Assembly (NCBI GenBank): GCA_021736135.1
Contig: JAIPGO010000016.1
Span: 1-52,182, forward strand
DNA length: 52,182 nt
DNA from: Candidatus Cloacimonadota bacterium
GTDB lineage: Bacteria > Cloacimonadota > Cloacimonadia > Cloacimonadales > TCS61
Direction of reading: 5' to 3'
Shown: piece by piece, positions 9,758-36,769 of the stretch
Position numbering within the stretch: position 1 is the first letter of the stretch
How the letters are laid out: each line of letters begins with the position of its first letter
The notes under the pieces: generated by a model
The model's input: only the letters and a program-made list of their open reading frames with translations
What the model was told of the DNA's origin: nothing
The model's database searches: none
Translations under genes and position numbers: made by a program

Positions 9758-10648
9758 TTAAATAAACAGCAAAATCAGTGGTATTATTATCACTGCCAGA
9801 AGGGTTGCGGTAGTCACGATCTCGGCTGCCAGATCACGATCCAGGTCTTCCAGATCGGTTAAAACCAAGGTATTAAATCCCACCGGTGCTGCTGAAATGA
9901 GCAGCAGCATCTGCCGGTTTACGCCTTCCACTCCCAAAATCCAGGTTATTACAAAGCCCAGCAGCAAACCGCCCAGACTCCGTTGCAGAATGGCACCTGC
10001 CACCAGCCGGAAATGTTTCAGGCGGAATTCGAAGAACAGCCCCAAAGCTGTCATCATTAAGACGATGAGCGCTTTCAGGGCAATTGCAGATAATTCATAC
10101 ATAAATTCGGGAACCGGAATTGACATGATATTTACTAAAATACCGGTTATAATTCCCCAGAGCGGTGGTAAGCGTAATATTCTGCTAATGGGCGCTTTAC
10201 CTTTCCTGCCATTGCCATAATGCATAGCTGCCCAATAACTGAAGGTAAAAACCAACGCTACGTGTGCAATATCAAAAAGCAGCACCGTTGCCGTGCCTTC
10301 ATCACCCCAGCGCGCCTGGGCAAATGGCAATATCAGGCTGGTATTTAAGATCAAAGTTGATAGCAGGAAAACCGTATTACTGTGATTATTAATGCTTACT
10401 TTCCGAAAATAGATGCGAGTAAAAAGAAAATTGCCGAATATAACTAAGAGTGCCGTTATTATGGGATATAATCGCGTAATATGCAATTCCAGACGGCTGA
10501 AAGTGGCAAAGCTTATCGCAGGTAAACATAAATAGACTACTGCTCTTAAAAAAAGATTCCCATCATCTTTTCGAAATACATTACTTCTCTTCAGCAGATA
10601 GCCTGCCAGGAAATAGAGCAGGATTGGTAATAACTTATTGATCAGCAT
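9758..10648 (-). CDS. AEC-family (auxin efflux carrier-like) permease
   Basis: A 296-residue inner-membrane protein with about ten hydrophobic segments arranged in two halves, as in the AEC (membrane transport protein, YfdV/MleP) family. The N-terminus MLINKLLPILLYFLAGYLLKR and the C-terminal stretch AAPVGFNTLVLTDLEDLD with a final hydrophobic helix fit the family, whose bacterial members export or take up malate, malonate and related acids. Length is normal. The start lies 5 bases after the kinase stop with little Shine-Dalgarno sequence, which suggests translational coupling. It is the last gene of the five-gene minus-strand run. Substrate unknown. Confidence 0.82.
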   Translation of the reverse strand: MLINKLLPILLYFLAGYLLKRSNVFRKDDGNLFLRAVVYLCLPAISFATFSRLELHITRLYPIITALLVIFGNFLFTRIYFRKVSINNHSNTVFLLSTLILNTSLILPFAQARWGDEGTATVLLFDIAHVALVFTFSYWAAMHYGNGRKGKAPISRILRLPPLWGIITGILVNIMSIPVPEFMYELSAIALKALIVLMMTALGLFFEFRLKHFRLVAGAILQRSLGGLLLGFVITWILGVEGVNRQMLLLISAAPVGFNTLVLTDLEDLDRDLAAEIVTTATLLAVIIIPLILLFI

Positions 10649-10653
10649 TCGTG

Positions 10654-12546
10654 CTATATTTCATCTAAACTTACACAGGGGATTTTTATCACGAATTCTA
10701 CCCCTGCTTCCTGATTAAAGACTTCAATTGTCCCATTATATTTATGCTCAACGATCATCTTGCAGATATAAAGCCCGATCCCGGTGCCATCCTTGCCTTT
10801 GGTGGAAAAATAGGGTTCAAAGAGTTTATCCTTCAATTCAGATTTTATCTGATTGCCTTTATTAAATATTCTTATTTCATACTGAGTCTCGTTTCTGTTC
10901 AAGCTCAACTTAATTTCCGGTTCAGAGATATTATCGCTCAGCATAGCATCTCTGGCATTATTAACAATGTTCAAGATTACTTGCACTATCTCATTAGGGT
11001 TTCCGCTGAGGCGACAATCTTCCACCATCTCCAAAGTAAAGTGAATTCCGGCTTTTTGGAGTGAATAATCCAGCAGTTGCATTGATTTTGCAATAACTTC
11101 TTTCAGGTCAAATTCACCAGTCAGGTCAGATTTAAAGAAATTCCTGAAATCATTGATCGTTTCGGACATATAGAGTATTTGTGACATAATCAGCTTCACC
11201 TGCTTTTCAATATATTCTGCTGACATTTCATTAAATTCCCAGGCATCTTCAAAGGACTGCACCAGCACACCGATCACGTTCAAGGGCTGTCTCCACTGAT
11301 GTGCGATCAGGGAAACCATTTCTCCCATCAGTGCCATGCGGGATTGACTGGAAAGCAGATCATCCTGCTCATTAAGTCGCCGGGCTGATTCTTCAAATTC
11401 CTGCTTCAGTTGTTTATGCATCTGGTGCAACTTTTCTATCTGCTCGGACATTGCTTTATTTTTAGCGTTTAATTCCCGGGTTTGCAGCTTGTAGATTTCT
11501 GTTTTATATTTTGCTTCCATCTCGGAAATTTTCTCGCGGCTCATATTCGCGTTCATTTCTTTGCTTAGCGTCATCAGGGTTTTCTGATTTTTACTCAATT
11601 CCTCAAAATTATTCTTCTGTTCCCAATAGCGGCATATATCTTCATAAACCGTGATTTTATCACTACTCAGATTGTGTTCTTCTGCTATATTTTTTGCCTG
11701 TAGAAAATATCCATAAGCTTCGTCTGACTTTTCCAGATCCAAAAGAGAATTTCCGATGATATGAGAAACCTTGCACATTCCCTGCAAGTCATTGATTTCT
11801 TTTTTCATAGCGTAGGATTTTCGGTAATAATTCCTGCCTTCATCTTCATTGCCCAGATCAAAAAGAGTCATTCCAATATTCAGATAGGCATCTGACAGGT
11901 AGTTCAACATATTGTGCTTTTCAAAATAGGCAGCAGCAGTTTGAAAGGAATCCAGGGCAGCTTTAAAATCTTTTTCTTCATATTGAAGGCAGCCCATATT
12001 AAGGCGGATTATGTCTTTACCGGCAAAACCGATTTTTTCCGCTTCATCCAGAGCAAGCTGAAAATAGTTCAAAGCTTCAGGAAGATTTCTGGATTCAATA
12101 TAACACGTACCCAGATTGTTATAACAGCTCATCAGATTATCAGCCTTCGGTTCTTTCAGATAACAGTCTAATGCCTTTAAATAATATTCAAGAGCCAGAG
12201 ATATTTCTCCGCTAAGGTAAGATATTCTTCCTTTGATGTTATAGCCCGTGCCCATCTGGTTGGGTGATTCATTATTTACGCCGAACTTGAAAACCTCATC
12301 TGCCATAATCTTTGCCTGCTCAAAATCCGAGTGATATATATATGCATAAGCTTTACCGATTATTGCTTCAATTTCCAGATCATTGTCATTTATTTCCCTG
12401 GCTGAGGCAAGTGCCAGATCTGCATATTCAATACTTTTCTGGCAATCTGCCTGCCTCAAAAACTGGGAATATTCCAGATAAGCCACGATTTTATCTCGTC
12501 CGGCATTTGCCTCAATCCTGGCAAGTATTGCTTTTTCTCTATCCAT
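10654..12546 (-). CDS. TPR-containing sensor histidine kinase
   Basis: A 630-residue cytoplasmic kinase without membrane segments or a signal peptide. Residues about 10-310 are tetratricopeptide repeats (for example NLGTCYIESRNLPEALNYF). A coiled coil (about 325-400) leads to the dimerisation/phosphoacceptor box LIAHQWRQPLN with His416, then an HATPase domain: N box VILNIVNNARDAM, F box LFEPYFSTKGK, G box DGTGIGLYICK. All ATP-binding boxes are present, so it should be active. TPR-coupled kinases of this type sense protein partners rather than external ligands. No response regulator is adjacent. AGGAGGG precedes the ATG. It lies 29 bases after the acetyltransferase and 5 before the permease, hence probably one transcript. 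Confidence 0.88.
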   Translation of the reverse strand: MDREKAILARIEANAGRDKIVAYLEYSQFLRQADCQKSIEYADLALASAREINDNDLEIEAIIGKAYAYIYHSDFEQAKIMADEVFKFGVNNESPNQMGTGYNIKGRISYLSGEISLALEYYLKALDCYLKEPKADNLMSCYNNLGTCYIESRNLPEALNYFQLALDEAEKIGFAGKDIIRLNMGCLQYEEKDFKAALDSFQTAAAYFEKHNMLNYLSDAYLNIGMTLFDLGNEDEGRNYYRKSYAMKKEINDLQGMCKVSHIIGNSLLDLEKSDEAYGYFLQAKNIAEEHNLSSDKITVYEDICRYWEQKNNFEELSKNQKTLMTLSKEMNANMSREKISEMEAKYKTEIYKLQTRELNAKNKAMSEQIEKLHQMHKQLKQEFEESARRLNEQDDLLSSQSRMALMGEMVSLIAHQWRQPLNVIGVLVQSFEDAWEFNEMSAEYIEKQVKLIMSQILYMSETINDFRNFFKSDLTGEFDLKEVIAKSMQLLDYSLQKAGIHFTLEMVEDCRLSGNPNEIVQVILNIVNNARDAMLSDNISEPEIKLSLNRNETQYEIRIFNKGNQIKSELKDKLFEPYFSTKGKDGTGIGLYICKMIVEHKYNGTIEVFNQEAGVEFVIKIPCVSLDEI

Positions 12547-14659: not shown

Positions 14660-14705
14660 TTATCAAAATGATAATCCTACAAGGAGTCTTTATCATTATG
14701 ATAAA
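14660..14705 (+). promoter_or_regulatory. Pair of upstream activator dyads for the sigma-54 promoter
   Basis: Two near-identical palindromes: TTATCAAAATGATAA (14660-14674) and TTTATCATTATGATAAA (14689-14705, perfect 8-1-8). Consensus TTATCAWWATGATAA. Centres at 14667 and 14697 are 30 bp apart, three helical turns, so both lie on one face of the DNA. They sit near -177 and -147 from the predicted start, where sigma-54 enhancers for AAA+ activators normally lie. Role inferred. Confidence 0.7.
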
Positions 14706-14781: not shown

Positions 14782-14807
14782 TGGTGTATTACCATAATAA
14801 TACACCA
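14782..14807 (+). promoter_or_regulatory. Inverted repeat just upstream of the sigma-54 promoter
   Basis: TGGTGTATT (14782-14790) and AATACACCA (14799-14807) form a perfect 9-bp inverted repeat with an 8-base spacer, centred about 50 bases before the predicted start. It could bind a second regulator; it differs in sequence from the two upstream dyads. Confidence 0.5.
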
Positions 14808-14817
14808 TTCAGGAGTT

Positions 14818-14836
14818 TGGCACACTGATTGCTTTT
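14818..14836 (+). promoter_or_regulatory. Sigma-54 (RpoN) promoter of the micropeptide operon
   Basis: TTGGCACACTGATTGCTTTT contains the invariant GG (14819-14820) and GC (14831-14832) separated by exactly 10 bases, within TGGCAC-N5-TTGCT, an almost ideal -24/-12 element. Predicted transcription start about 14844, 33 bases before the first micropeptide ATG. It is the only element of this kind I found in the gene-free parts of the window. Confidence 0.85.
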
Positions 14837-14876: not shown

Positions 14877-14948
14877 ATGAAGAAAAGAGCATTAGTAAGT
14901 AAGTGGAATGAAAGAAGAGCAAGATACTCAAGGAGCTTAGTAAAATGA
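14877..14948 (+). CDS. Micropeptide 1 of KWNERR operon (23 aa)
   Basis: A 23-codon gene starting MKKRALVSKWNERR and ending RSLVK, preceded by GGAGG eight bases before ATG. Nine basic and one acidic residues; one Trp. No signal peptide or membrane segment. The core K9-W10-N11-E12-R13-R14, then R16, Y17, S18 aligns without gaps to the next two genes. The four last residues lie where the Shine-Dalgarno sequence of the next gene (AAGGAGC) is encoded, so the tail may be free to vary. Its stop overlaps the next start (ATGA). Function unknown; a basic, RNA- or membrane-binding or signalling peptide is a guess. Confidence 0.8.
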   Translation: MKKRALVSKWNERRARYSRSLVK

Positions 14949-15013
14949 AGACATTAAATTTTACCGGCAAGTGGAATGAACGCAGAATAAAATTTACAGG
15001 AGGCAGAAAATGA
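14945..15013 (+). CDS. Micropeptide 2 of KWNERR operon (22 aa)
   Basis: A 22-codon gene, MKTLNFTGKWNERRIKFTGG then RK. It starts in the ATGA overlap with micropeptide 1 and has its ribosome site AGGAG nine bases upstream inside that gene. The core KWNERR falls at residues 9-14, followed by K16, F17, T18, conservative replacements of R, Y, S. Arginine 13 is CGC here but AGA in peptide 1 and CGT in peptide 3, so the residue is kept while the codon changes, a sign of selection on the peptide. Net charge about +6. Its end encodes AGGAGG, the ribosome site for peptide 3. Confidence 0.8.
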   Translation: MKTLNFTGKWNERRIKFTGGRK

Positions 15014-15072
15014 AGAAGACAGCATTCGTCAACAAATGGAATGAACGTCGCAATCGTTACTCCCGGAGGTGA
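15010..15072 (+). CDS. Micropeptide 3 of KWNERR operon (20 aa)
   Basis: A 20-codon gene, MKKTAFVNKWNERRNRYSRR. It starts in an ATGA overlap with micropeptide 2, with AGGAGG seven bases before the ATG. Residues 9-14 are again KWNERR and 16-18 are RYS, as in peptide 1; codons differ (AAA for Lys9, CGT CGC for the arginine pair). It ends directly after the motif, its last codons CGG AGG TGA forming another Shine-Dalgarno sequence. Net charge about +7. Three genes with gapless identity at the core and at least six variable sites suggest old tandem duplication with selection on the core. Confidence 0.8.
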   Translation: MKKTAFVNKWNERRNRYSRR

Positions 15073-15074
15073 AA

Positions 15075-15110
15075 ATGATCACCAGGAACAAAATCAAACC
15101 GGCAGGCTGA
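15075..15110 (+). CDS. Possible fourth mini-ORF (11 aa) running into the terminator
   Basis: ATG five bases after GGAGG opens 11 codons (MITRNKIKPAG) whose last codons form the left arm of the terminator and whose stop lies in its loop. It lacks the KWNERR core. A ribosome here would cover the terminator stem, so it could tune read-through; it may equally be the remains of a lost fourth copy or chance. Confidence 0.3.
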   Translation: MITRNKIKPAG

Positions 15111-15130
15111 ATAACCTGCCGGTTTTTTTT
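15097..15130 (+). terminator. Strong intrinsic terminator of micropeptide operon
   Basis: AACCGGCAGG (15097-15106) and CCTGCCGGTT (15115-15124) form a perfect 10-bp stem with an 8-base loop, followed by eight T (15123-15130). It may also slow the convergent transcript of the 15191-18874 gene. Confidence 0.92.
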
Positions 15131-19026: not shown

Positions 19027-20181
19027 TTATTTTATATCTATTTCCAGTTCCAGAGATTCATCACACCTTTCTGATCTAATTACCCATGGAACAAATACAT
19101 CTTCCAGGTCACAGTAATATAAGCCGTCTAAAGTTCCGGCAAATACTTTACCGTCAAATTCTGCTAACCCGGTTATGGCATGACCATGTAATTCTCCTAC
19201 ATCATAATCTTCAAATTCAATAGTCTCAAAATCAATGGAAGCAATATTACAGGAGAAAAAAAGTATATCCTTACCAGCAATTTTAACTCTATCCCAGGCG
19301 GCATTGAGTTGTAACCAGTCTTCCCAGGTAAATCCACCGTCAAACGATTTTTTAACTTTTCCATAAAACATCCCTGTAAGAAAGCCATTACCCTCAAATA
19401 CATATTTAATAACAGGAATTAAATCCAGATACTGAGCAGTAAAAGACAATTCATCCACGGCAGTAAACGGAGGATATTGATAACCACCTCTACAATATTG
19501 CCAGAAATAACCACCATAATAATAATTACTTGCTATTACTGTTAATGGGTTTGCAAGCTCTTCATAAGCATTAACAATATGATCAACTTCAAATTCAGGC
19601 GTGGTATCCATAGAAGAAAAAGTTCCGAAATATAATTTATCATCTTGATAATTGTCTGCTATGTTATCAAACTGTCTCACGGGGATCATATACAGTCCAT
19701 TACCGTTTGTCACAATATGATTATGATTTAAGATTCTCCAGTCATCTGAATGGATGAATTTAGCAGGCATATTAATGCTATCCACCAGTGAGGTTACCGG
19801 AATTGAACCTATGTATTCTCCGCTTGATGCGTCTCCCATATACATGTTTTGTCCGGTAGGGTCACAGTAAAAATAGTAATCCTCATTAATGTAGGGATTA
19901 TATTGAAAAGAACCGGATACTATATTTGTTTTCAATATTACTGTCTTTTCAGGTTCGGAATTCCCCTGAGTAAATATCGAAAAATAAATATCATTAGTAA
20001 CTGATAGCTGAGTTCCGCTTTCATTTGCATACATGCCGGTGATCATGCCGGTTCCCAGGGATGATACAAAGTGCCATCTCACATTATCTTCAGGTTCGGA
20101 AGGTTTCTTATCACATCCGGTGATAATTAAAATAACTGCTATTATAACAGAAATTAGAATAGTACTGGTTTTTAAAAGCAA
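19027..20181 (-). CDS. Lipoprotein, tandem paralogue 3 of 3
   Basis: A 384-residue lipoprotein of unknown function. TTG start after AGGAGGAG; signal MLLKTSTILISVIIAVILII and lipobox ITGC. The mature part has the shared RWHFVSSLGTGMITGMYANE start, YYFYCDPTGQNMYMGDASSG, a FTWEDWLQLNAAWDRVKIAG segment and CNIASIDFETIEFEDYDVGEL. The repeating strand pattern and short aromatic motifs hint at a beta-propeller-like fold, unproven. Against paralogue 2 the sequence is close throughout, with differences mainly in the centre and at the C-terminus, where this copy ends in a different tail (PWVIRSERCDESLELEIDIK). Confidence 0.82.
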   Translation of the reverse strand: MLLKTSTILISVIIAVILIITGCDKKPSEPEDNVRWHFVSSLGTGMITGMYANESGTQLSVTNDIYFSIFTQGNSEPEKTVILKTNIVSGSFQYNPYINEDYYFYCDPTGQNMYMGDASSGEYIGSIPVTSLVDSINMPAKFIHSDDWRILNHNHIVTNGNGLYMIPVRQFDNIADNYQDDKLYFGTFSSMDTTPEFEVDHIVNAYEELANPLTVIASNYYYGGYFWQYCRGGYQYPPFTAVDELSFTAQYLDLIPVIKYVFEGNGFLTGMFYGKVKKSFDGGFTWEDWLQLNAAWDRVKIAGKDILFFSCNIASIDFETIEFEDYDVGELHGHAITGLAEFDGKVFAGTLDGLYYCDLEDVFVPWVIRSERCDESLELEIDIK

Positions 20182-20193
20182 TTCTCCTCCTTT

Positions 20194-21351
20194 TTATTCC
20201 TCAACTATTTCCAGATTAAGAGATTCCTCTTTTCTTGATGAATTATTTTCCTTTAACTTAAAGGCATCTTCCAGATCACAGTAATATAAGCCGTCTAAAA
20301 TTCCGGCAAATACTTTACCGTCAAATTCTGCTAATCCGGTTATGGCATGACCGTGTAATTCTCCTACATCATAATCTTCAAATTCAATAGTATCAAAATC
20401 AATGGAAGCAATATTACAGGAGAAAAAAAGTATATCCTTACCAGCAATTTTAACTCTATCCCAGGCGGCATTGAGTTGTAACCAGTCTTCCCAGGTAAAT
20501 CCACCGTCATAAGACTTCTTGATTTTCCCATAAGACAAACCTGCCAGGAATCCATTACCTTCAAAAACATATTTTATAATAGAATCAGAAAAAAGATGCT
20601 GGGTAGAATAAGATGATTCGTCAACGACTGTTAATGGCGGTTCATATATACTTCCTGATCTACGATACTGCCAGAAGTATCCACTATAATAGTAATTACT
20701 TGCTATTTCTGTCCCTAAGGTTGCAAGTTCTTCATAAGCATTAGAAATATGCTCAACAACGAATACAGGTTCCGGATCCATAGAAGAAAAAGTGCCGAAA
20801 TATAATTTATCATCTTGATGACTGTCTGCTATGTTATCATACTGCCTTATCGGGATCATATACATACCGTTACCATTTGTAACAATATGATGATGATTTA
20901 AGGTTTCCCAGTCATCTGTGCGGATGAATTTTGCCGGCATATTTATGCTGTCCACCAGCGAGGTTACGGGAATTGCGCCAATGTATTCTCCGTCTGATGC
21001 ATTTCCGATATACATGTTTTGTCCGGTAGGGTCACAGTAAAAATAGTAATCCTCATTAATGTAGGGATTATATTGGTAATAACCGGGAACAATTGTTGTT
21101 TTCAATATTACCCTCTTTTCCGGTTCCGTATTACCCGGAGTAAATATCGAAAAATAAACATCATTAGTAACTGATAGCTGAGTTCCGTTTTCATTTGCAT
21201 ACATGCCGGTGATCATGCCGGTTCCCAGGGATGATACAAAGTGCCATCTCACATTATCTTCAGGTTCGGAAGGTTTCTTTTCACACCCGGTTATAATTAA
21301 ACTTACTGTTATAATAACAGAGATTAGAATAGTACTGGTTTTTAAAAGCAA
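20194..21351 (-). CDS. Lipoprotein, tandem paralogue 2 of 3
   Basis: A 385-residue lipoprotein with TTG start, AGGAGGAG ribosome site and lipobox ITGC, nearly identical at both ends to paralogue 3 and sharing with paralogue 1 the tail AFKLKENNSSRKEESL. It lies 12 bases from each neighbour, so the three are one transcript. The tail similarity with paralogue 1 and the head similarity with paralogue 3 suggest duplication followed by gene conversion. Function unknown; outer-membrane or periplasmic surface location is inferred from the lipobox. Confidence 0.82.
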   Translation of the reverse strand: MLLKTSTILISVIITVSLIITGCEKKPSEPEDNVRWHFVSSLGTGMITGMYANENGTQLSVTNDVYFSIFTPGNTEPEKRVILKTTIVPGYYQYNPYINEDYYFYCDPTGQNMYIGNASDGEYIGAIPVTSLVDSINMPAKFIRTDDWETLNHHHIVTNGNGMYMIPIRQYDNIADSHQDDKLYFGTFSSMDPEPVFVVEHISNAYEELATLGTEIASNYYYSGYFWQYRRSGSIYEPPLTVVDESSYSTQHLFSDSIIKYVFEGNGFLAGLSYGKIKKSYDGGFTWEDWLQLNAAWDRVKIAGKDILFFSCNIASIDFDTIEFEDYDVGELHGHAITGLAEFDGKVFAGILDGLYYCDLEDAFKLKENNSSRKEESLNLEIVEE

Positions 21352-21363
21352 TTCTCCTCCTTT

Positions 21364-22515
21364 TTATTCCTCAACTATTTCCAGATCAAGAGATTCCTCT
21401 TTTCTTGATGAATTATTTTCCTTTAATTTGAATGCATCTTCCAGATCACAGTAATATAAACCGTCCTGAGTACCGGCAAATATTTTACCGTCAAATTCTG
21501 CTAATCCTGTTATGGCAAGACCATATAGTTCTCCTACATCATAATTCTCAATTTCTAATGTTTCAAAATCGATGGAAGCAAGGTTACAGGAGAAAAACAG
21601 CATATCCTTATCGGCGATTTTTACTCTGTCCCATACGGCATTAAAATTTAACCACTCTTCCCAGGTAAACCCTCCATCATAAGACTTTTTAACTTTTCCA
21701 TAGAACATTCCCATCAGAAAACCGTTATCTTCAAAAACATACTTAATTATGTCATTCAAATACAGATATTGAGTAGAATATGTTAATTTATTTACTGAAG
21801 TAAGTGGAGGGTGCAGACCATCACCTCTGTTACAATTCCAGAAATATCCTCCATAATAATAATTACTCGCTATAATTGTTATGGCTGTTGACTCTTCTTC
21901 ATAAGCATTAACGATATGATTTATTTCAAAAACAGGTTGAGTATCATTAAAAGAAATTTTCCCGAAATACAAGCTGTCTCCCTGATAGAAACCACCAGGA
22001 AAAAAATGCATGACCGGGATCATATAGAAACCATTACCGTCAGAGGTAATATGCGGATGATTTAATGTTCTCCAGTCATCCGACTTGATAAATTTGGCAA
22101 GTCTGTCTTCACCATTCACAAAATCCGTTACCGGAATTGAGCCGATATATTCTCCGTCTGAGGTATCTCCGATATACATGAATTGTCCGATCTCGTCACA
22201 GTAAAAATAATAATCCTCATCGATGCTGGGATTATACTGGAAATATCCTGTATTGATCTTTGTTTCTAATTCTACTGTCTTTTCAGGTTCAGTATTATCC
22301 GGTGTAAATATGGCAAAATGAGTATCATTAGTAACCGATAACTGTGTTCCGCTTTCATTTGTGTACATGCCGGTAATCATACCTGTTCCCAGGGATGAGA
22401 CAAAGTGCCATCTCTCTTTCGACTCGGGTTCAGTTGTTTTCTCAGTACATCCGGAAATAAAAAAAATACCTGTTATTATCACAACGAGTAAAGTAACTTT
22501 ATTGTTATAAAACAA
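21364..22515 (-). CDS. Lipoprotein, tandem paralogue 1 of 3 (first in transcript)
   Basis: A lipoprotein of 383 residues if it starts at the TTG at 22515, which has AGGAGG four bases upstream and aligns with the TTG starts of both paralogues; an open frame to 22614 adds 33 residues that lack a ribosome site and would spoil the signal peptide. Lipobox ISGC. Most divergent of the three (for example FFPGGFYQGDSLYFG where the others have QDDKLYFG). Function unknown. A canonical promoter lies 143-171 bases upstream of the start. Confidence 0.8.
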   Translation of the reverse strand: MFYNNKVTLLVVIITGIFFISGCTEKTTEPESKERWHFVSSLGTGMITGMYTNESGTQLSVTNDTHFAIFTPDNTEPEKTVELETKINTGYFQYNPSIDEDYYFYCDEIGQFMYIGDTSDGEYIGSIPVTDFVNGEDRLAKFIKSDDWRTLNHPHITSDGNGFYMIPVMHFFPGGFYQGDSLYFGKISFNDTQPVFEINHIVNAYEEESTAITIIASNYYYGGYFWNCNRGDGLHPPLTSVNKLTYSTQYLYLNDIIKYVFEDNGFLMGMFYGKVKKSYDGGFTWEEWLNFNAVWDRVKIADKDMLFFSCNLASIDFETLEIENYDVGELYGLAITGLAEFDGKIFAGTQDGLYYCDLEDAFKLKENNSSRKEESLDLEIVEE

Positions 22516-22657
22516 TCTTCCTCCTTGATATGAGAGAATTAAAAAATCAATTATTCTTTCTGATCTCACAAAACAAAACTTTATAACCCTTTCTCTAAGC
22601 ATCAGATACATCAATAATTAATCATCATAAAACATCATTACCATATATTACTGTTTA

Positions 22658-32605: not shown

Positions 32606-35600
32606 TTAATCTCTTCCTAATAATCTATAGAGTTGGGTACGGCTGAGTCTGCCCAGTTCTGCTGCTTTGGAGGCATTTCCCCGTGCGCTTTTCATTAGTC
32701 TACGGGCATATACCAGGTCAATATCACCTGTTATCCTTTTCCGGTATTCTTTATATTCATCCCAGAGAAAGGGCATATTTTCATCCAGAGAAAATTCCGA
32801 ACGGGCAGTTCCTTTTTCAAATAATTCCAGCGTCAGTTCCTGTCCCGGGCACAGTACCATCGCTCTTTCGATTTCATTTTCCAGTTCCCGCACGTTGCCG
32901 GGGAACTGCCGGTTCTGCAGAAATGCCATTGCCTGCAGCGTGATACCTTGCACGTTTTTATGGAAACGTTCATTAAATTTACTGATAAAATGTTGTATCA
33001 GATGAGGTATATCATCGCTGCGTTCCCGCAGTGGTGGAATATTTATCTTGATAACTTTTAATCTGTAATACAGATCCTGGCGGAATGTGCCCTGCTCAAT
33101 AGCGTTTTCCAGTTCCTGATTAGTAGCTGCCACGATGCGTACGTCCACTTTTTCAGGTTGATAGCTGCCCAGCGGTGTTACCTGGCGTTCCTGGATCATT
33201 CGCAGCAGCTTTGCCTGCAAGGCAACCGGCATATCGCCGATCTCATCCAGAAATAACGTTCCACCGCGTGCTGCGGAAATTAACCCCTGCTTATTCTGGT
33301 CAGCTCCCGTAAAAGCGCCTTTCACGTAACCGAAAAGCTCACTTTCCAGCAGCGTTTCCGGGATAGCAGCACAATTTACCGGTATGAACGGTTTTTCCGG
33401 TGCATAGATGCGATGAATGGCGCGCGCTATGAGTTCCTTGCCTGTTCCCGTTTCACCGGTGATAAGGATGTTCACATTATGCCGGGCTACTGTGCCGATC
33501 ATCTGGTATATCTTCTGCATCTGCGGACTGTTGCCCACAAGTTCGCCTCCCGTTGCCGGGTCCAGCATCACCAGTTGTGCCACCTGCTGTTCCTGCAGTT
33601 TCTGCCAGTGCAGTACTTTCTCATAAGCGGAACGTCCCTGCACCATGATTGATTCGATCAGTTTTTTCTCTTCACTGGAAAAGACCCGCTCTGCCCGGGC
33701 ATCAGAATAGATTACTCCTTGTATAGCACTCTCAAAGCGCAACGGGTAGCAGACTGCCGTCCGCAAACCCAGCCCGAAAATACTGGAATGTATATCAAAA
33801 TTGGTGGCTTCCTGCAGATCCGTGAGGAAGCGTATTTCATTTTCTTCCAGGGTTGCCAGCAGAATTGTTTCACTTACGCGTACTGATTCCAGGTCTATAG
33901 CCTGTAATTCGCTGTTTATGCCCTGCACTGCCTTCAACTTGCCTTCCTGTAATTCGTAAAACAGTGCCCGGTCGAGTCCTGCAATTTTGATTATACCTCG
34001 AAGAACTTCTGCTATGATTGATTCGAATTCCACTTTGTTATGGATCATACTTACTATGTCCCAAAGCAGACTCAGGTGTTCCGGCGTTTCCTGTTTTTGT
34101 GCTTTTAATATCTGTTCCAGCGGATAAAAAGAATAGAGTTCCAGTATCTTTTCCAGTTCTTTATGCACTTCTGCATCCTGCTGCCAGCCTGCCAGTGCCA
34201 GTTGATAACCGTAATTTATATATAGCCAGCAGTCATCCAGCCTGCTTAACTCGCCCAGATTCCTGATTACCAGTTTCCGGTCTGCCAGGAATAATCCTTC
34301 TGCCAGTTTGTGCAGCAAAGGCTCTTTTAGTAGAGGATATAGCGTCTGCAATGCTTTACCGTCTCGATTCTGCCAGGCAGTAAAGAATAAGGCCAGCAAT
34401 ACATTCTCACTTAGAGTCTCTGCAATTTTCAGATTAGGCTCCAGTTCTTCCAGTGCCTTATTCACCGCAATTCCCTGCCATAACGGCAGAATGTAAGTTA
34501 ATAGTTCTTTCGCCAGCGCTGGATTTTCCACCAGCGCTTCATCCTGCTGCAGTTCCGTTATTATTCTGTCCAGGTCTGCTGTTTCTTTCTGCGCAAAAAG
34601 AGCAAAAACGGCAATCAATTCCGCCTGCAGTCTGTAAGCCGGCACTTGCATTTTACGGGCAGCCTGCACGGCATTGCGCGCATAGATATGTGCCCGTTTC
34701 CATTGCGCTTTATGCAGAAAAACATCTGCCAGATTAATCTGGGCTACCACGTTGTAATTACGTGCAAAAGCCTGCTTAGCCTTTGTCTCCGTCAGTCCGA
34801 TTATTTCCTGATAAATTGCGCTGCAGCGATTAAAATCCCTTTGCTCATAATATACTGCGGCCAGATTATTCAGGCAGCGCATTTCCGCTTTTTCCTTTCC
34901 CGACTGCCGAAAATAGACCAGCGCTTCCTGATTTGCTTTTACTGCTGCTGCAAAATTGCCCAGTTCCTGCTGCGCTATTGCCATATCGACTTTAATAACT
35001 GCTTCTTCTTCACTGCCTGCGGCTGTTCCTATTTTACCGTAAAGCTCCAGCGATAATGTTGCATCTCCTAACTGTCGCGCCAGATAAGCCTTCGCTTTCT
35101 GCAGAGAATAACCATGCCCTTCCCAGTCCAGAAAAGTATCCAGTATAGACAGTGCCTGCCAGGCACTCACCAGAAAGCCCTGCTGCACCAGGAAGCGGTA
35201 ATGTTTTTCCATAAACTCTATTCCGGCAGCCTTATTTCCCTGCCGTAAATAGATCAAGGAGGCTGTTAAGTAATACTCCTGTTCCAGTGCTAATGCCAGA
35301 TATTGTTCTGCTGCTGCCGGCTCTTCTGCCTGATAAAAGCTTTCCACTGCCTTAAAAGCGCTGCCTGAAAGAATAATCATGCCACTATGCAAACCTGCTG
35401 CCAGATTGTCTGCCCAGTTCTTTTCCCAGATCGCTGCCAGTTGCACCGGCAGCCAGTAACCCAGCCAGGCTGCCATCTGTAACAGGGGAGCGCTTGCCTG
35501 TTCCGGAGCGGTAGGTTTATCTGCTCGGGCCAGCAACCTTACGGCGGCGATGGATAATGGCTCTTTTACGCCTGTTGAAGGTTTTTGACCCAAAAGCTGA

Positions 35601-36769
35601 AAATATTCCTCATATTCTGCCGGCTTGACGAAATGCGCCTGGCTTTCCTGAGATATTTCCAGAAATAAAATCCCCGGACGGCTGCTTAACCGGTCAAAAA
35701 AGGGAGACCCCCCCGCCTGCCTGGGGAAAATTACCAGTAGCTGTGTTCCCTCCCAGTCATTTTTCCAAAGATCATTTATGTTTTCCAGTTTCACGCCTAA
35801 AATGCGGCGTAACCGTTCCAGAATTAACTCCCGCTCTTCCAGCAGTTCTTCTTCTCTGATAATTACTACTGCCTTACCGGCTGCTTCACTGCGCAGCATT
35901 GCCTGTTCCGCTATCCGTTCCGGTTCATCATCAGGATGACAGCGTAATCTGCCCTGACGCAGTAACTGTTCTGCCAGTTCGTCCTGTATCTGAAAATGAT
36001 AACTCTGGGCCAGCTCAAGTCCTGATTCTATCTCTTCACCCGCCAGCGTAGCAAACCAGTGTAGTACTGAAACTGCACTCATCCGCTCGCTGACGCTCCA
36101 GTTCAGCATTGATTTTAAAAAATCCGGCAGAGATGCTGATTCCAGCCAGGCTTCCCAGCGCTCCCGGGTTCTTAATATCTCCTGCCAGAAGTCATCTCCC
36201 CGTTTTTCCGACGGATGTTCACCCTTGATCAAAAAATAATAAAGCAGCCCCAGCGCAAAGATGTCTGAGGCAAAATGACAGCTTTTAAATAATAACTTCT
36301 CGGGACTCGCATAAGCAATATTGCCCCGGAATATACCGTCGTTATAATGATTCGGCGTCGCCAGTCCAAAATCCAGCAGGTATGGTTCATCAGACCGGAT
36401 GAGTATATTATCCGGCTTCAAATCGTTCAGACAGATGCCCAGCCCCTGCAGATGCAGCACCTGCCGCACCAGACGGTAAAACCACTTGTTCAATTCCTGC
36501 TCACTGCTGAAAGCTCCTGCCGTAAGGCTCTCACCTTCAATATACTCCATCGCCAGCCAAACACCTTCCATATCTGTATAAAATGACCGGGCAACCGGTA
36601 CATTTACTCCTGCTGCTGCCACTAAATATAAATATTCTCGTCGGGCCTCCGATAGATTCTGCGAAGCATAATGCTTCAAAACAAGACGCTGACCTTTTTC
36701 GTCCTCTGCCAGCCAGATAACAGCAAAGCTGCCTCTGCCGATTTCTTTAATTTTCTTGTATTTTTCCAT
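32606..36769 (-). CDS. Ser/Thr protein kinase fused to TPR, GAF and sigma-54 activator domains
   Basis: A 1387-residue cytoplasmic regulator. Kinase domain, residues 1-250: GRGSFA loop, Lys32, catalytic Asp116 in LNDLKPDN (His-Arg of HRD are replaced by Leu-Asn), DFG at 133-135, and SPE. Residues about 280-480 resemble a worn ATPase region without Walker A. Residues about 480-780 are TPR-like helices. GAF domain about 905-1045. AAA+ sigma-54 interaction domain: Walker A GETGTGKE (1105-1112), GAFTGA (1151-1156), GGTLFLDEIGD, then VRELENEIERA. Fis-type helix-turn-helix at the C-terminus (NASKAAELGRLSRTQLYRLL). With GAFTGA intact it should open sigma-54 promoters, under control by kinase and GAF ligand. 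The transcript seems leaderless. Confidence 0.93.
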   Translation of the reverse strand: MEKYKKIKEIGRGSFAVIWLAEDEKGQRLVLKHYASQNLSEARREYLYLVAAAGVNVPVARSFYTDMEGVWLAMEYIEGESLTAGAFSSEQELNKWFYRLVRQVLHLQGLGICLNDLKPDNILIRSDEPYLLDFGLATPNHYNDGIFRGNIAYASPEKLLFKSCHFASDIFALGLLYYFLIKGEHPSEKRGDDFWQEILRTRERWEAWLESASLPDFLKSMLNWSVSERMSAVSVLHWFATLAGEEIESGLELAQSYHFQIQDELAEQLLRQGRLRCHPDDEPERIAEQAMLRSEAAGKAVVIIREEELLEERELILERLRRILGVKLENINDLWKNDWEGTQLLVIFPRQAGGSPFFDRLSSRPGILFLEISQESQAHFVKPAEYEEYFQLLGQKPSTGVKEPLSIAAVRLLARADKPTAPEQASAPLLQMAAWLGYWLPVQLAAIWEKNWADNLAAGLHSGMIILSGSAFKAVESFYQAEEPAAAEQYLALALEQEYYLTASLIYLRQGNKAAGIEFMEKHYRFLVQQGFLVSAWQALSILDTFLDWEGHGYSLQKAKAYLARQLGDATLSLELYGKIGTAAGSEEEAVIKVDMAIAQQELGNFAAAVKANQEALVYFRQSGKEKAEMRCLNNLAAVYYEQRDFNRCSAIYQEIIGLTETKAKQAFARNYNVVAQINLADVFLHKAQWKRAHIYARNAVQAARKMQVPAYRLQAELIAVFALFAQKETADLDRIITELQQDEALVENPALAKELLTYILPLWQGIAVNKALEELEPNLKIAETLSENVLLALFFTAWQNRDGKALQTLYPLLKEPLLHKLAEGLFLADRKLVIRNLGELSRLDDCWLYINYGYQLALAGWQQDAEVHKELEKILELYSFYPLEQILKAQKQETPEHLSLLWDIVSMIHNKVEFESIIAEVLRGIIKIAGLDRALFYELQEGKLKAVQGINSELQAIDLESVRVSETILLATLEENEIRFLTDLQEATNFDIHSSIFGLGLRTAVCYPLRFESAIQGVIYSDARAERVFSSEEKKLIESIMVQGRSAYEKVLHWQKLQEQQVAQLVMLDPATGGELVGNSPQMQKIYQMIGTVARHNVNILITGETGTGKELIARAIHRIYAPEKPFIPVNCAAIPETLLESELFGYVKGAFTGADQNKQGLISAARGGTLFLDEIGDMPVALQAKLLRMIQERQVTPLGSYQPEKVDVRIVAATNQELENAIEQGTFRQDLYYRLKVIKINIPPLRERSDDIPHLIQHFISKFNERFHKNVQGITLQAMAFLQNRQFPGNVRELENEIERAMVLCPGQELTLELFEKGTARSEFSLDENMPFLWDEYKEYRKRITGDIDLVYARRLMKSARGNASKAAELGRLSRTQLYRLLGRD

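Follow-up and report, generated by a model that had tools for sequence, protein, structure and literature searches.

Tandem arginine-rich micropeptides under predicted sigma54 control in Cloacimonadota, a probable output of stress regulons

Genes of about 20 codons fall under the usual annotation cut-offs, and a short run of them on a contig of a Candidatus Cloacimonadota bacterium (JAIPGO010000016.1, assembly GCA_021736135.1) raises the question of whether such reading frames encode peptides at all and, if so, what those peptides are made for. The window, by which we mean the whole stretch of 52,182 nucleotides that was analysed, contains three of these on its forward strand: micropeptide A (MKKRALVSKWNERRARYSRSLVK, 14877..14948, 23 aa), micropeptide B (MKTLNFTGKWNERRIKFTGGRK, 14945..15013, 22 aa) and micropeptide C (MKKTAFVNKWNERRNRYSRR, 15010..15072, 20 aa). 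Each is preceded by a Shine-Dalgarno sequence of the GGAG/GGAGG type, and two ATGA overlaps, within which B and C start, couple A to B and B to C. The initial annotation, made from the letters of the DNA, had described this arrangement, and its coordinates proved exact. It had also pointed to a gap-free alignment with a KWNERR core, which is seen as M1, K2, K9-W10-N-E-R-R14, R/K16 and Y/F17, with the tryptophan at residue 10 of all three peptides. One refinement is needed here. The C-terminal pairs RS, GG and RR are encoded by codons (AGGAGC, GGAGGC and CGGAGG) that double as the Shine-Dalgarno sequence for the next reading frame, which accounts for the likeness of the peptide ends with no need for selection on the peptide, so the peptide-level core stops at about residue 17. 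The peptides are very basic, with computed net charges of +8, +6 and +7, in line with the +6 to +8 estimated beforehand.

Within the 304 bp unit there are three instances of KWNERR. Shuffling the bases of the unit 20,000 times never produced the motif, and the rest of the window has no further instance in any of the six frames, also under the looser pattern [KRIQ]W[NKQ]E[RK][RK]. Across the 4.14 Mb genome the KWNERR DNA pattern is present three times, all at this unit, and the reversed pattern not at all. The synonymous switches beneath the core that had been taken as a sign of selection on the peptide are real (AGA AGA, CGC AGA and CGT CGC), and a comparison of 32 pairs of related or paralogous ORFs points the same way. 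As pairs within a group are not independent, the following figures give a direction and not an exact significance: core differences number 49, 28 and 95 at codon positions 1, 2 and 3; of 127 core codons that changed, 59 did so synonymously in frame, against 8 of 132 and 13 of 134 in the other two frames; random placement gives 15% synonymous changes on average, and the observed 46% was never reached in 2,000 trials. The ratio pN/pS, which answers the proposal of a dN/dS-type check across related copies, is 0.39 for whole ORFs and 0.26 for the core. The checkable parts of the initial annotation's reading are supported.

When 125 genomes of the phylum were searched with the pattern, two of them, both from genus g16 (Candidatus Stygibacter), proved to have short ORFs with KWNERR. 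These are the nearest named relatives and belong to the Cloacimonadota, in agreement with the phylum suggested at the outset; the organism has been described (PMC8542988). Profiles were then built stepwise (A1-A3) and searched against this phylum. With A3 about 54 places lie below E = 0.005, while the reversed profile gave no match below that value, its best being 0.0068, and the search of Cloacimonadota short ORFs that had been suggested thus yielded translated-frame copies in other genomes with a clean control. In the profile series A, B and C all match, A with E = 2.6e-10, though A is itself a row of the profile used; as A3 includes many of the members found, its E-values for these are not independent evidence. 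Independent support comes from the earlier, smaller profiles and from a common promoter layout. Each unit was examined individually. Three to six separate transcription units with one to three peptides are present in the window's genome and in the g16 genomes: the further units of the former lie on C95 (three ORFs), C134 (one ORF) and C69 (one ORF, before a TetR gene), and those of g16 comprise three tandem two-ORF units, one three-ORF unit, one two-ORF unit followed by a TldD/PmbA pair and one lone ORF ahead of TetR. Other members belong to genera g3, g4, g17 and g18 and to another family, f13 (for example MKHNSIILLWKERKKLYNLPKK). Members are 18-26 aa long, rich in arginine and lysine and carry a net charge of +3 to +8, and the family consensus is two hydrophobic residues followed by W-N-E-R-R/K-x-R/K-Y/F. 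Two units depart from the common form. At L084 1998-2063 (G089:C98) the middle one of three ORFs, MKKSKLVLGQKKKEKNQGGSR, has lost the tryptophan core and has kept its start, Shine-Dalgarno sequence and ATGA coupling; in genus g4 (L119 ~1740-1865, G069:C122) a sigma54-like site is followed by a different micro-ORF with a GTG start (MEKERYKKWIFTILNTILIYSLS) and then by three family micropeptides.

A strict double-core pattern run against 84,980 species genomes and viral contigs gave, outside Stygibacter, just WNER repeats and chance matches; no sign of a viral origin was seen in the viral contigs and plasmids gave no match. That the core belongs to no described family, as the initial annotation had it, is borne out by Pfam, NCBIfam, PHROGs and PDB, where no matching family was found; the weak matches in these scans, to mL51, a docking domain and Spc110, seem fortuitous. 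No paper mentioning KWNERR was found in the open-licence literature, and searches there for sigma54 or RpoN together with micropeptides or tandem small ORFs returned nothing relevant, which is weak evidence of novelty because open-licence papers only were covered. On the whole we have very little doubt that these belong to a coding family of micropeptides, which we read as a new one.

What controls them can be read in part from the flanking DNA, where the initial annotation had noted none of the elements described here. A sigma54 -24/-12 promoter (TGGCACACTGATTGCT, 14818..14833, + strand), with GG and GC at the correct spacing, is the sole exact match in the window, and none of 500 shuffles was as good. 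Upstream lie two class I activator palindromes on the + strand, TTATCAAAATGATAA (14660..14674) and TTATCATTATGATAA (14690..14704), 30 bp apart from centre to centre; these are putative EBP sites 1 and 2, and such paired upstream sites are conserved in orthologous units, at the same distance. A third palindrome, TGGTGTATTA-N6-TAATACACCA (14782..14807), is placed just upstream of the -24 element. As a similar GTGT...ACAC element is found in the g16 orthologous units L079 and L084, it may possibly be a further operator, the site of a second regulator. Downstream, an intrinsic terminator (AAACCGGCAGG...CCTGCCGGTTTTTTTT, 15096..15125, +) was identified by the terminator and RNA fold analysis, with a convergent gene beyond it. 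It is overlapped by a possible fourth mini-ORF read from the sequence, MITRNKIKPAG (15075..15110, +), of 11 codons and with a GGAGG. Relatives have ORFs of 7-11 codons in its place with little sequence in common, and a function for it is doubtful. Judged from promoter and terminator, the unit looks like a stand-alone transcript of ~290 nt; its neighbours encode GHL10 and a T9SS-type exported protein.

The same layout recurs through the family. Of 28 units, 21 have a strong sigma54 site near the first ATG, of a quality reached by 0-3 of 500 shuffles, and in most of these the palindromic activator sites lie at constant positions. For g1 and g16 the positions are roughly -215 and -185 in class I (TTATCANNNTGATAA) and -140 and -118 in class II (TGTNCGCNNGCGNACA). 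In f13 the sites read ATATCANNNTGATAT, with the same inner core as class I. A search of 40 family genomes for the exact class I pair, its two sites spaced by 15 bp, located it at micropeptide units and nowhere else. For some members (in G066, in G092 and those linked to TetR) no sigma54 site was found nearby.

Single class I sites, in most cases with a sigma54 promoter and a second, degenerate site, precede the gene for an rseP-like M50 protease and other genes for exported proteins. They also precede an operon for a PDZ protein, a DUF4390 protein, a HAMP sensor kinase, an EBP response regulator and SppA, from which we infer that this operon is autoregulated and that its EBP, which lies at L170:3440-4777, is the putative activator at the class I sites. 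Of the regulon links, that through class I is found most widely. At L246 in g18 the order is sigma54 promoter, micropeptide, PDZ, DUF4390-like, kinase, EBP and SppA, and at L247 in f13 it is sigma54 promoter, micropeptide, hairpin, PDZ, lipoprotein-like, DUF4390, kinase and EBP; the two EBPs are 58% and 53% identical, respectively, to that of the window's genome. Class II sites precede HlyD-ABC-MacB/FtsX export operons, one of which also has an EBP and a kinase, and a class II site lies near another EBP gene, while class III units adjoin TetR and TldD/E genes. The gene content (SppA, RseP, PDZ and MacB) suggests the label of envelope stress for the regulon, and it is very likely, judging from these shared sites and neighbours, that the micropeptides are an output of stress regulons.

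Some sites of the same kinds stand at other loci. At L197 2796-2900 (G087:C146) a gene for an exported protein is preceded by a sigma54 promoter and a class II site, with no recognisable micropeptide ORF; the gene is related to one that follows the micropeptide on G000:C134, so that a micropeptide may have been lost. At L242 (G000:C35 ~10055-10200) and L243 (G087:C159 ~11750-11930) a class I sigma54 promoter is separated from rseP by a short RNA; this apparently lacks a start codon, contains TCAANCCTTGGAAAGAAAGA and a terminator, and reads LLQSLERKKEA-like in frame. A copy of this element with an ATG (MRKSLLQSLERNKEANYLG...) is found at G087:C36:21031 (L245). The apparent WKERK motif in the short RNA before rseP is not counted as a family member, as the sequence is read in another frame, as LLQSLERKKEA-like, and has no ATG.

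How might such peptides act? In the mechanism that we propose, the kinase would sense envelope or secretion stress and the phosphorylated EBP would bind the palindromes and drive the sigma54 RNA polymerase; the short transcript would be translated through its ATGA-coupled ORFs to give a burst of peptide, and the peptides would have a single acidic target in common within the cytoplasm, either RNA or the ribosome or the surface of a membrane protein. An arginine-rich peptide with one invariant tryptophan is compatible with binding to RNA, the ribosome or an acidic protein, and work on DUF1127 proteins shows that such sequences can do either (PMC12501420). No member sequence contains a hydrophobic stretch that could form a transmembrane segment, the mean hydrophobicity is -0.25 to -0.82, and the hydrophobic moment is no higher than that of shuffled sequences (mean z 0.0). 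These values do not support a simple amphipathic membrane helix. Units under several different regulators have this core in common, which makes a shared target likelier than a single regulator or kinase. The genomes compared are fragmented and incomplete. On sequence grounds we consider it rather probable that a true family, serving as stress-regulon output, has a cytoplasmic peptide effector role with its target left unspecified; that the target is one and the same in all cases is a tentative proposal, somewhat against the odds.

Other readings of the locus would place the function in the RNA or outside the cell. Multi-copy short transcripts driven by sigma54 and an EBP through upstream sites and closed by a terminator resemble the paralogous Qrr sRNAs of Vibrio (LuxO, sigma54), and the transcript might likewise be an sRNA in which the ORFs are secondary. 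This would be very surprising: Qrr are regulatory RNAs, whereas here selection is seen at the level of codons, what the paralogues have in common is peptides and not RNA, and no special RNA structure was found besides the terminator, the fold having a z of -1.2 against chance and no Rfam family. Still less probable is that these are leader or attenuator ORFs which couple translation to downstream genes and yield no peptide product. The terminator-like hairpin between micropeptide and PDZ gene in f13 and the ATGA coupling of the ORFs would fit such a role; however, in the window the terminator closes the transcript ahead of a convergent gene, most units of g1 and g16 stand alone, and the core is not a run of a single amino acid as in classical attenuators. 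Export, as a leaderless multi-peptide bacteriocin or a peptide signal that leaves through the co-regulated MacB-type exporters, is again quite improbable. Tandem genes for homologous small cationic peptides with no leader are indeed typical of leaderless bacteriocins (PMC6131525) such as garvicin KS and aureocin A70, and class II units share their sites with MacB/FtsX operons, but the micropeptides are shorter and much more hydrophilic, their units are chromosomal and under stress control, and no exporter or immunity gene adjoins the window unit.

Two further possibilities concern partners encoded nearby. The peptides could bind the kinase or the EBP of their own operon and damp or sharpen the response, much as MgrB acts on PhoQ and DUF1127 proteins on PhoR. 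The micropeptide is first in the kinase-EBP operon in g18 and f13, and there is precedent for kinase binding by small basic proteins (PMC12501420); MgrB and SafA are also small peptides encoded within the regulon of a two-component system (PMC12501420). These, however, act on the periplasmic domain of PhoQ, whereas the micropeptides are hydrophilic and cationic, have no transmembrane segment such as that of MgrB and belong to several regulons. One kinase cannot be the sole target, because the same core is found under the class II EBP and beside TetR genes, and we give feedback of this kind a small chance. DUF1127 (PF06568; YjiS, CcaF1 and the Agrobacterium SDPs), of which known members bind RNA or sensor kinases (PMC12501420), is also among the closest known systems: its proteins too are small, arginine-rich, paralogous and tied to stress and two-component signalling, and the micropeptides, at 18-26 aa, are likewise rich in arginine and well short of 50 aa. 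The micropeptides are nevertheless at most half as long, neither sigma54/EBP control nor tandem ATGA coupling appears in the descriptions of DUF1127 that we found, and a Pfam search gave no match to DUF1127 for A, B or C at E up to 10 or for 29 A3 members at E up to 1. The other partner is TldD/E. Three genera, g1, g16 and g17, have micropeptide units beside TldD/PmbA pairs, among them the pair on G087:C262, and the arrangement is of two kinds; the association was noticed after the fact but is unlikely by chance because the genomes searched hold only ~2-4 such pairs. The narrow pore of TldD/E admits only peptides that are unfolded, and these enter by the N-terminus (PMC5810440), so that peptides of 20 residues would fit as substrates. 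The micropeptides might then be dedicated substrates, precursors or inhibitors of TldD/E, trimmed for example to a signal or a modified product, in the manner of the microcin B17 precursor and the CcdA tail. This seems doubtful, as most units, that of the window included, have no TldD/E neighbour, several TldD/E pairs stand without a micropeptide and showed no cryptic one, and no modification enzymes were seen beside the units; cleavage of the micropeptides is a candidate activity. We return to the cytoplasmic effector as the preferred reading, to which turnover by TldD/E, through removal or trimming, might be added as a possibility on the unlikely side. The most complete version, in which ~20-residue W-N-E-R-R peptides from tandem coupled units are intracellular stress effectors, the common output of at least three envelope or export regulators and controlled by TldD/E, would seem unlikely in every detail at once.

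These results suggest that 20-codon genes have been multiplied, selected and wired into several sigma54 stress circuits in two families of an uncultured phylum. The micropeptide is tied to one defined regulon (PDZ, DUF4390, kinase, EBP, SppA and RseP) and repeatedly to TldD/E, which turns the function of the peptide and the normal digest of TldD/E into directly testable questions; if the link is true, TldD/E would gain a physiological substrate outside microcin and toxin-antitoxin biology. The window contains other features of note. Three consecutive ORFs of 384, 385 and 416 aa at 19027-22614 (-) have no Pfam match, and a protein of 1387 aa at 32606-36769 (-) combines a Ser/Thr kinase, a GAF and a sigma54-activator domain in one chain. 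Finally, a dispersed palindromic repeat, CCATTGCGAAGG...CCATTCGCAAGG, is found between genes in two Cloacimonadota families (L011, L130, L132, L243 and L245).
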